IMG/VR virus record: IMGVR_UViG_3300024236_000007
Coordinates: 1 to 46,349 of that record
DNA length: 46,349 bases
Source: a virus
Strand: one strand, 5' to 3'
The notes below the pieces were generated by a model, which saw nothing but the letters and a program-made list of their open reading frames with translations, made no database searches and had not been told where the DNA came from. Shown here in pieces: positions 8,557 to 23,843 of the stretch (the stretch's first letter is position 1; every line of letters begins with the position of its first letter). The translations under genes were made by a program, and so were the position numbers.

Positions 8557-8571
8557 ATGACATTTTGTCAT
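8557..8571. promoter_or_regulatory. Palindromic operator-like site upstream of hsp20
   Basis: ATGACATTTTGTCAT, a perfect 6-bp inverted repeat around TTT. It lies 12 bp before the -24-like element. From memory, similar TGACA-N3-TGTCA palindromes stand before heat-shock genes of Flavobacteriia. I cannot verify this here. Confidence 0.6.
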
Positions 8572-8582
8572 AAAAATAACTT

Positions 8583-8597
8583 TGGCACAGTTTTTGA
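8583..8597 (+). promoter_or_regulatory. Sigma-54-like (-24/-12) promoter of hsp20
   Basis: TGGCACAGTTTTTGA matches the sigma-54 pattern TGGCAC-N5-TTGC, with the two invariant G positions 11 bp apart (8585 and 8596) and one mismatch in the -12 GC. An overlapping TAACTTTG (8577-8584) fits the Bacteroidota -7 consensus TAnnTTTG but has no TTG at the right distance upstream. Start of transcription would fall near 8609. Confidence 0.5.
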
Positions 8598-8610
8598 CAC
8601 TATATTATAT

Positions 8611-8635
8611 GTAGCTAAAAACAAAACGGAGCTAC
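8611..8635 (+). promoter_or_regulatory. Inverted repeat in the hsp20 leader
   Basis: GTAGCT and AGCTAC separated by 13 A-rich bases, ending 26 nt before the hsp20 ATG. In the mRNA it could form a weak, heat-labile hairpin. A regulatory role is speculation. Confidence 0.4.
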
Positions 8636-8661
8636 AGTAATATAAACTAAAAACAAATAAA

Positions 8662-8988
8662 ATGATTTACACTAATTTTTTTAACACATCATTCGATAAT
8701 TTCTTTAATGATGCACATGAAAACTATCAAGCTGAAGCAACCAATTTAGAACTATCTTTACCTGGATTTTCTAAAAAAGATATTAATATCGAGGTAGAAG
8801 GCAGAACATTAACAATCTCATCTGAGGTAGAAAAAGAAAAAGAGACATATCATTATAGGTCTTTTGAAAAATCTTATATTTTACCTTTAAATGTAGATGG
8901 TAACGCTCTTACTGCAAAAATGGAAAATGGTTTATTGACTATTGATTTTGGTAATAAAGCTGAAAAAAAGAAAGTTACAATTAAATAA
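8662..8988 (+). CDS. Small heat shock protein, Hsp20/alpha-crystallin family (108 aa)
   Basis: Residues 22-108 form an alpha-crystallin domain: LELSLPGFSKKDINIEVEG, TLTISSEVEKEK, FEKSYILPLNVD and a hydrophobic MENGLLTIDF strand before a lysine-rich end. The family acts as an ATP-independent holdase that keeps unfolding proteins soluble. At 108 residues it is shorter than bacterial Hsp20 (about 140), with a reduced N-terminal arm and no I-x-I tail. Small Hsp20 genes are known in many T4-like phages, especially cyanophages. The control region is unusually elaborate for a phage gene and host-like. It is followed by a terminator, so it is monocistronic. Confidence 0.95.
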   Translation: MIYTNFFNTSFDNFFNDAHENYQAEATNLELSLPGFSKKDINIEVEGRTLTISSEVEKEKETYHYRSFEKSYILPLNVDGNALTAKMENGLLTIDFGNKAEKKKVTIK

Positions 8989-8999
8989 ATCTTAATAAG

Positions 9000-9050
9000 T
9001 CTGGGGTACTTTTTTAAAAAAAATAAAAAAAAGTCACTCCAGATTTTTTT
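9000..9050 (+). terminator. Terminator after hsp20 (cassette copy 1)
   Basis: Imperfect stem TCTGGGGTACTTTTTT / AAAAAAGTCACTCCAGA with a long A-rich loop, then seven T. The 3' arm CACTCCAGA and everything up to base 9083 recur at 9694 and 14200. Confidence 0.8.
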
Positions 9051-9083
9051 ATGTCGTTTATTTTTCTTATATTTATACTATAA
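9035..9083 (+). repeat. 49-bp terminator-promoter cassette, copy 1
   Basis: Starts with CACTCCAGA, then the T-run, ATGTCGTTTATT, and ends TTATATTTATACTATAA (9067-9083). Copies 2 (9694-9742) and 3 (14200-14248) have the same length and differ at only 2-3 positions. The end element lies 17-23 nt before an ATG in each case and is the presumed promoter. Confidence 0.85.
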
Positions 9084-9709: not shown

Positions 9710-9742
9710 ATGTCGTTTATTATGATTATATTTATACTATAA
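9694..9742 (+). repeat. 49-bp terminator-promoter cassette, copy 2
   Basis: Same layout as at 9035. The presumed promoter TTATATTTATACTATAA is at 9726-9742, 17 nt before ATG 9760. It shares the extension CAAATTAA with copy 3. Confidence 0.85.
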
Positions 9743-10668: not shown

Positions 10669-10897
10669 ACTCACACAAGAACTTTTAAAAAGTTTAAAAA
10701 GAATTGCAGACGGTATTGAGCATTCTAATAAGTTAGAAGAAGCGGCTCAAAAAAGAACTGCTAAATTTGAAAAAATCCAAGAGAAAAAAGCCACTTTAGA
10801 GCTAAAAGAAATTCAAGAAAAAAGAAAGGTAACTCAAGTTACCGAATTCCTTGCTACAAAAATAGAAGAAGACTCTAAACCAAAGGACGGTGAGTAA
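10655..10897 (+). CDS. Small coiled-coil protein (80 aa)
   Basis: Nearly all helical and highly charged: [20 protein letters not shown], then a long Lys/Glu heptad stretch to residue 65. It overlaps the previous gene by 14 bp and the DnaJ gene by 8 bp, so it lies in a coupled operon. No recognised family and no membrane segment. Confidence 0.75.
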
Positions 10898-11684
10898 TTA
10901 CTACGAAGTTCTTGGTTTAAAAAAAGGAGCATCTGAATCTGAAATCAAAAAGGCTTATAGAAAATTAGCAAAGCAACATCACCCAGATGTTAATGGTAAT
11001 GCAGAAGAATTTAAAAAAGTTTCTGAAGCCTATGAGGTTTTAGGAGACCCCCAGAAAAAAGAGCAATATGATAATTTTGGAATGGGCTCAGGTAACCGAT
11101 TTAATTTTGGTGGTTTTGAAGACTTATTTGAAAAACATTTTGGTAGAGGTTTTGGGTCTAGTGCAAGCAGAAAAGGACATGATATAACTCTAATATTAAC
11201 AGTAACTTTTGATGAGGCTTATTTTGGTTGTAGAAAAAACATAGATCTGCCCGGAAATGCTGGTAAAATAGCAATGAACTTTAAACCAGGCTTGAAAAAT
11301 GGTCAAAAATTCAGAGTTGCTGAAAAAGGAGCAGAAAATCCGTATAACCCAAATGCACCTAAAGGTGATTTAATTATTAATGTTGAGGTATTACATGATA
11401 TTAGATGGATATTACAAGGCAATGATTTATGGTATGAATTAACTTTAAGCTGGTATGATATACTTCTTGGTTGTAAAAAAGAAGTAGATACTCCCGATGG
11501 AAAAGTTATCATCAAGATACCTGAAAAAAGTATACCTGAAAAAATATTAAGAATAGCAGGAAAAGGATATCCGATATATAATAGTAATAATAAAGGAAAT
11601 TTGTTAGTGAAATTAAACCCAAATTGGGATGGAATCACAGATGATGACTTAGCGTTAATTAAAAAAATAAAAGATAAAAAATGA
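10890..11684 (+). CDS. DnaJ/CbpA-type co-chaperone without zinc finger (264 aa)
   Basis: Residues 1-63 are a canonical J-domain with HPD at 31-33 ([10 protein letters not shown]). Residues 64-94 are a Gly/Phe linker. Residues 96-264 are the two beta-sandwich substrate-binding domains ([37 protein letters not shown]). The four CxxCxGxG repeats of classical DnaJ are absent, giving the type B/CbpA layout. At 264 residues it is shorter than bacterial CbpA (about 300). It should stimulate the host DnaK, as no Hsp70 is encoded in this window. The GTG start (10890) is set by the J-domain and overlaps the previous gene. Confidence 0.93.
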
Positions 11685-14199: not shown

Positions 14200-14248
14200 C
14201 ACTCCAGATTTTTTTATGTCGTTTTTTATTCTTATATTTATACTATAA
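14200..14248 (+). repeat. 49-bp terminator-promoter cassette, copy 3
   Basis: Same order as copies 1 and 2, ending TTATATTTATACTATAA (14232-14248), 20 nt before ATG 14269. The left stem arm is degenerate: only TTTTGGA (about 14185-14191) can pair with TCCAGAT, so the terminator is weaker here. Confidence 0.8.
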
Positions 14249-22106: not shown

Positions 22107-23843
22107 ATGGGTTTCTTTGACGATTTAGTATACAAGGCACAGGAAGCAGGAGAATGGATATACACGAATGTTAAAACCGGAGTAGATGAAGCTAAATCTG
22201 GAAGAGTTGAAGGTGCTAAAGGAAATCCTGCAAAAAGTAAAGCTGAAAGAGAACGTGCTGCTAATGCTGAATTATTAGGAAACACATCTGAGCTTGCAGA
22301 TAGTCCATCAGAAAAAGGAGATATTCCTCCTGCTTTTGACCAACTTAAAAGACCTGCAAAATATAATATCAGTGGTAAAACAAACAAAATAGAGATTTTT
22401 CAAGAAAAAGGAACTTCGCCAAGGTCTATAGCTAATAAATGGAGTTTATTTAGATACAGAGGTACTCCAATGCAGGGTATAGGAAATGATGAAGGTATAC
22501 CAAAAGTTGGTTACACAAAGGCTCAAGTTTTTAGAATAGGAAACTCCGGTTCTCCTAAAAACCCAACTGCTAAAGTAATTATTGAAGAATGCGGAAAACT
22601 TACAGGTTCTCCAGGATATCAATATCGATATGAGGATTTTATTTACACAAAATATTATGGAAAAATACCTAATAACCAGTTGCTTACTCTTAGGAGATTT
22701 GCATTTCCAGTTATGGATAATATTATAAGACCTGTTCAATTTAATGCAGATGGTAAACCATTTAAAAATTTACAGCCAGCACTTGCACAAGCTGTAACTT
22801 TTATGGGTGAAAAGCCTGGAAATAACATGAAAGAAATACTTAAATTTACAGTTGGTTTTAAATGGAAAGAAGCTACTTCAGAATTACAAACTATTAATAG
22901 TCAACCTAGAGATAGAGGTAAACTTGGCGGTTTTATAGATTCCATGCCTTTTTCACAAAATATACAAGGAGGTCTTGCGGGAGAAAGTGCTTCGCAAACT
23001 AGAATAAGACAGCAACAAGGTGACGGTTATGACCCTGTAAAACAAACATATCCTAATCATGAATTTTCACCTTTAAATATAATAAAGAAAGTTAATATGA
23101 GAGAGGCTGGTTTAAATTTTAGCCAAGAATTCTCTTTAAAATTTCAATATGATTTAAAGGGTATTCCTGGTGTAAGTCCTAAACTTGCATTTTTAGATGT
23201 TCTTGCAAACCTTTTAATTTTAACATACAATGAAGCGCCGTTTTGGGGTGGAGCTGTAAGATATACAGGTGGTGGTAAAAAAGGTAAACCTTTTGGAGAC
23301 CTTAAAAAACTACAAAGCGGAGATATTAAAGGATTTATGGGTAGTGTTGTTAAAGATTTAGCAGGAACTATTACAAAGGGTGTTAAAGATATTATGAAAG
23401 GTGGAGATAGTAAAATATTAAATAATATTTTGGGTGGAGCTATGATGGACTTATTAGGAGGACCTCAAGGTGGTACAGTAGCGGCAGCATTCTTAACTGG
23501 AGACCCTACAGGACCATGGCACCTTACAGTAGGAAATCCTCTTAACCCAATCGCTGTTATAGGAAATTTAGCATGTACTGATACTACATTTGAATTTGAA
23601 GGGCCGTTGGGTTACGAAGATTTTCCAACTACACTTAATGTAACTATTAAATTAAAACCAGGTATGCCAAGAGATAAAGGTGCTATTGAATCAATGTTTA
23701 ACGCTGGTAGAGGTAGATTATATTTGGCAGAAGATGGAGTATTAGATCCTGGTGTAACTTATGATGTAGATGCGTATGGTAAAGTACAGGGAGACAAAAA
23801 CGGAAACTTAGCTAGAGCTGCGGCAAAATTTGCAAACGGATAA
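22107..23843 (+). CDS. Tail or baseplate structural protein (578 aa)
   Basis: The N-terminal 60 residues are helical and charged. The middle has membrane-free Gly/Ala-rich helices (GGAMMDLLGGPQGGTVAAAF), and the C-terminal third has a conserved-looking block GPWHLTVGNPLNPIAVIGN followed by EGPLGYEDFPTTLNVTIKLK. I associate that block with tail or baseplate proteins of large myoviruses, possibly the tube initiator or hub cap (gp48/gp54 role). The exact T4 equivalent is not provable by eye. It starts the run of overlapping baseplate genes and its stop touches the LysM-type gene (TAATG). Confidence 0.75.
   Translation: MGFFDDLVYKAQEAGEWIYTNVKTGVDEAKSGRVEGAKGNPAKSKAERERAANAELLGNTSELADSPSEKGDIPPAFDQLKRPAKYNISGKTNKIEIFQEKGTSPRSIANKWSLFRYRGTPMQGIGNDEGIPKVGYTKAQVFRIGNSGSPKNPTAKVIIEECGKLTGSPGYQYRYEDFIYTKYYGKIPNNQLLTLRRFAFPVMDNIIRPVQFNADGKPFKNLQPALAQAVTFMGEKPGNNMKEILKFTVGFKWKEATSELQTINSQPRDRGKLGGFIDSMPFSQNIQGGLAGESASQTRIRQQQGDGYDPVKQTYPNHEFSPLNIIKKVNMREAGLNFSQEFSLKFQYDLKGIPGVSPKLAFLDVLANLLILTYNEAPFWGGAVRYTGGGKKGKPFGDLKKLQSGDIKGFMGSVVKDLAGTITKGVKDIMKGGDSKILNNILGGAMMDLLGGPQGGTVAAAFLTGDPTGPWHLTVGNPLNPIAVIGNLACTDTTFEFEGPLGYEDFPTTLNVTIKLKPGMPRDKGAIESMFNAGRGRLYLAEDGVLDPGVTYDVDAYGKVQGDKNGNLARAAAKFANG

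Follow-up and report, generated by a model that had tools for sequence, protein, structure and literature searches.

The closest described systems are sets of host genes. In Flavobacterium psychrophilum, mapping of 5' ends placed a sigma-54 -24/-12 motif, SM4, at groESL, lon, dnaK, grpE-dnaJ and htpG (PMC9723704), and a 2025 in-silico study predicted a Bacteroidota regulon in which sigma-54 promoters are enriched at chaperone genes (PMC12316311). The gene set common to these two systems comprises groESL, dnaK, grpE, htpG, clpB and lon, with an enrichment of IbpA-type small Hsps. F. psychrophilum reportedly possesses no sigma factors beyond sigma-A, one sigma-54 and seven ECF factors, and its three enhancer-binding proteins (EBPs) were left unassigned (PMC9723704). 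In the portions of both papers available to us, neither a palindrome nor phased spacing, the identity of the activator or phages are described.

Phage genes wired to a host stress regulon are of a kind already known, the cyanophage pho boxes under host PhoBR being one example (PMC10976474), and cyanophages likewise encode Hsp20 in the form of small heat-shock protein genes (PMC3827213, PMC5028025). Here we describe IMG/VR virus record IMGVR_UViG_3300024236_000007, a sequence of 46,349 nt (hereafter the window), in which the -24/-12 element common to the host systems lies upstream of a phage hsp20 gene. We consider it likely that the phage employs positions 8558-8636 as a sigma-54 proteostasis promoter of the Bacteroidota type. 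In that case it would probably make Hsp20 when the stress system of its host is switched on. The cyanophage pho boxes differ from this arrangement in stress, regulator, sigma factor and host phylum, and PhoBR control of cyanophage genes was tested experimentally, whereas here control is read from sequence (PMC10976474). The cyanophage-type hsp20 loci that we examined, unlike the window, have neither the palindrome nor the -24/-12 box.

The putative promoter starts with the palindrome TGACA-TTT-TGTCA (TGACATTTTGTCA, 8558-8570, plus strand), the predicted activator-binding site. Eleven bp downstream, on the same strand, lies a sigma-54-type -24/-12 element, TTGGCAC-N5-TTGA (8582-8597), with TTGGCAC at 8582-8588 and the core TGGCAC-N5-TTGA at 8583-8597, in agreement with the TTGGCAY-N5-TTG element of Bacteroidota sigma-54 proteostasis promoters. 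Also as in that class, the palindrome TGACA-N3-TGTCA is found 11-12 bp (or this distance plus a whole helical turn) 5' of the -24 box, and the promoter precedes a chaperone or protease gene, here hsp20. At the -12 box the phage has GA where the consensus is GC, and two relatives have TC. Sigma-54 numbering from the position of the element predicts a start at 8609 (plus strand), placing the centre of the palindrome at -45; classical sigma-54 enhancers lie farther upstream.

The composite of palindrome, gap and -24/-12 element scores 21 out of 21, compared with best scores of 15-18 per window in 60 shuffled windows, and the second-best independent site within the window reaches 15. Either half-motif alone occurs in the window at about chance level once one mismatch is permitted. 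The initial annotation had listed the palindrome, the -24/-12 element, a leader inverted repeat and a predicted start at 8609 as a layout without equal among the promoters of the window, and this description of the layout holds, with the palindrome starting one base to the right of where it had been placed. The other recurrent intergenic motif, TTATATTTATACTATAA, is exact at 9067-9083, 9726-9742 and 14232-14248; the segment 9035-9133, which contains the first copy, matches Chryseobacterium phages MA9V-1 and MA9V-2 and resembles a promoter of the phage itself. A promoter scan found no sigma-70-type promoter near hsp20.

The gene itself (8662-8988, plus strand) encodes a 108-aa small heat-shock protein (Pfam PF00011, 3.8e-16; phrog_432, 3.2e-12), with the alpha-crystallin domain spanning residues 24-104. 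Its leader would open, at about +2 relative to the predicted start, with a 5'-terminal hairpin (8610-8636, plus strand; stem 8610-8616 with 8630-8636; -7.2 kcal/mol, z -3.4). This hairpin folds in all five phages of the lineage, with stems TGTAGCT/AGCTACA (the window), TGTAAC/GTTGCA and TGTGC/GCACA, and thus appears to be maintained through changes in both sides of the stem. As a general part of the promoter unit the hairpin was rejected: the leaders of host and other viral units fold about as well as shuffled sequences, so it is peculiar to this phage clade. Downstream of the gene, a terminator-like hairpin with a T run (8997-9050, plus strand; -18.8 kcal/mol, z -5.6), left unflagged by a simple terminator scan, suggests that hsp20 is a one-gene unit. 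A DnaJ-family co-chaperone gene lies at 10890-11684 without the stress element, and is present near hsp20 in the related contigs L002 and L004 as well.

To place the unit among cellular genomes, we scanned prokaryotes for the exact pattern, taking a single genome from each of 84,980 species, and recovered at least 117 matching stretches. Of the 80 listed matches with a titled record, 76 come from Bacteroidota. Gaps between palindrome and box in the matches listed peak at 11-12 bp, with a second peak at 20-24 bp (1-9 bp, 3 matches; 10-12, 82; 13-19, 10; 20-24, 21; 25-30, 1). Where the gap is 10-13 bp, an ORF follows 83 of the listed matches, and in 81 of these it is a chaperone or protease gene: dnaK (44), htpG (16), groES (14), hsp20 (3), grpE (2), clpB (1) and lon (1), with L158 assigned to HtpG by eye and L202 and L238 read as GrpE. 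Within the matches listed, the unit of palindrome, 11-bp gap and -24 box is therefore found almost only in Bacteroidota, before heat-shock genes.

The strict pattern was present in 5 of 296 genomes; host palindromes are degenerate in many genomes, which makes this pattern too strict, and a relaxed score was therefore applied instead, on an hsp20 sample picked independently of the pattern. Ten of the 28 Bacteroidia hsp20 upstream regions in this sample carry the relaxed unit, compared with none of 840 shuffles and none of 27 downstream regions, and testing each gap separately gave peaks at 11, 22 and 32 bp. The relaxed consensus was shaped after part of the 28 loci had been seen, so that the case rests chiefly on the shuffled, downstream and gap controls. 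Additional peaks displaced from the first by one and by two turns of the helix are consistent with an activator acting from one face of the DNA, and at several sites another palindrome lies roughly two turns farther 5'. In all seven further genomes, dnaK is preceded by TGGCAY or CGGCAC, with TTG following at the distance typical of sigma-54 promoters. The search of host genomes for the palindrome and -24/-12 pair thus bears out the resemblance to flavobacterial heat-shock upstream regions that the initial annotation had suggested.

Its further suggestion, that the whole unit had been acquired from a host, finds no support as a recent event. In a tree of phage and host Hsp20 sequences (moderate support, bootstrap not settled), the proteins of the window, L002, L004-L006, L034 and L066 (on a long branch) form one clade outside the sampled hosts, and the members of this clade share 26-37% identity with the closest sampled host sequence; among annotated phage records no close Hsp20 relative was found. 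The phage protein thus appears to belong to an old, deep phage clade, and this position together with the low identity makes a recent transfer of gene and promoter from host to phage unlikely. An old joint capture of both is possible, as is a later recruitment of the promoter by the phage hsp20.

Relatives with Hsp20 only 42-53% identical retain the palindrome, the gap and the -24 box. Compared with L002, the promoter block is identical at 53 of 56 positions and begins exactly at the palindrome; just 5' of it, identity is about 30%, with 2-4 matches in each stretch of 10 positions. This block is the only conserved intergenic segment 5' of hsp20. In L004 the proximal palindrome is imperfect and a clean one lies further upstream. 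At up to 3 mismatches, three of the four related contigs hold the unit as a single copy sited at hsp20, the exception being the contig of L004, and at this threshold it is absent from ten other large phage records (mostly Bacteroidota phages) and one faecal phage contig. The window also carries phage replication and tail genes. Its protein encoded at 22107-23843 has relatives in phages of Tenacibaculum, Chryseobacterium, Flavobacterium and Prevotella, which makes a Bacteroidota host very probable.

Sigma-54 requires an EBP. The sigma-54 gene, rpoN, is present in all 296 sampled Bacteroidota genomes, and the search for the activator is helped by a 2-Mb genome (G132) with exactly one EBP. This protein has AAA+ and Fis-type HTH domains without a receiver, and its gene lies in the order miaB-EBP-lptE-X-secG (neighbour names by eye). 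At up to 3 mismatches the genome has a single match to the element, before htpG; a reversed control pattern also gave one match, so the argument from G132 rests on gene context. Orthologues of this EBP, mostly matching over the full length, occur in 58 of 60 Bacteroidia. In flavobacteria the gene lies near groESL, and in G001 it ends about 1.9 kb ahead of the groES element. In a 0.49-Mb genome where the miaB-lptE-type EBP is the only EBP match, dnaK retains the -24/-12 box, with no clear palindrome. Genomic context makes the receiver-less AAA+/Fis-type EBP of the miaB-EBP-lptE operon the most likely candidate activator.

Mechanistically, host RNA polymerase with sigma-54 (RpoN) would occupy the -24/-12 element, while the host EBP encoded between miaB and lptE would contact the palindrome from the same side of the helix, about 45 bp 5' of the start. 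On sensing protein-folding stress, the EBP would drive open-complex formation; since it has no sensor domain, the signal is perhaps chaperone titration. The product would be a one-gene hsp20 mRNA that its 5'-terminal hairpin may protect. Such a circuit would govern the induction and timing of hsp20 in infection or heat, and might benefit the phage. If true, this would mean that viruses infecting a major phylum of gut and marine bacteria have connected a chaperone gene to the protein-stress circuit of their host. It would also offer a testable answer to heat-shock control in Bacteroidota, in that the phased palindrome and the near-universal EBP suggest what the missing activator could be.

The same sigma-54 promoter could instead carry the palindrome as a repressor operator, a functional analogue of HrcA/CIRCE that is released when chaperones are occupied. 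Palindromes at chaperone genes are commonly operators, and a site immediately 5' of the -24 box would also suit a blocker. The palindrome of the window, TGACA-N3-TGTCA, is not a CIRCE/HrcA-type operator, whose inverted repeat is TTAGCACTC-N9-GAGTGCTAA. The gap recurs at 11, at some 21-23 and at some 32 bp; this periodicity and the second palindromes are easier to reconcile with an array of activators than with steric blocking, and sigma-54 would need an activator anyway. We regard the operator as unlikely.

Activation through sigma-54 also has to be weighed against transcription of hsp20 from TAACTTTG (8577-8584) by sigma-A, the primary sigma factor, with the -24/-12 likeness inherited or decorative. 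This octamer matches the TAnnTTTG -7 box consensus given for F. psychrophilum sigma-A (PMC9723704). However, in the relatives, which have CAACTTTG, CAACTCTG or CAGCTTTG, the TA varies whereas GGCA and the T tract are retained, and a sigma-A origin of the transcript seems highly improbable. Host hsp20 genes do have the palindrome and -24/-12 unit upstream, as expected if the promoter had been captured along with a host gene and were now an unused relic, but a relic should hardly be the only conserved intergenic block 5' of hsp20 nor persist throughout a deep phage clade, and we give this explanation very little credence.

The sigma-54-type unit is not confined to hsp20 loci. The pattern occurs in 101 stretches of viral contigs, with a gap of 11 in 71 of them. 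Many of these matches are dnaK on contigs whose DnaK resembles that of bacteria, and part of them may therefore be host sequence classified as viral; the phage-like genes behind the unit encode Hsp20, divergent DnaK and UVR-motif proteins. The 136-kb phage record G004 (IMGVR_UViG_3300012920_000022), which encodes a head maturation protease, a clamp loader and a DNA polymerase, holds eight near-identical units, all at gap 11 (loci L422-L428), before non-chaperone genes that include those for leucine-rich-repeat proteins and a predicted RNA polymerase sigma factor. Its eight copies suggest that the system can act as a general phage promoter. Tentatively, Bacteroidota phages in general might take their timing from the sigma-54/EBP proteostasis system of the host, in which case the stress activator of the host would trigger a phage gene cascade.

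Seven members of the scanned set (L036, L039, L048, L065, L099, L102 and L117) have UVR-motif proteins behind the element on viral contigs, possibly a second stress-linked phage gene. The 372,793-bp viral record G009 carries the unit twice (L247 and L256), before a divergent DnaK-like gene and before the gene of a 163-aa protein. In L046 (177-7447, minus strand), which has 23 tRNA genes, and in L073 (10721-10853), the unit lies directly 5' of a tRNA-His that heads a same-strand array.
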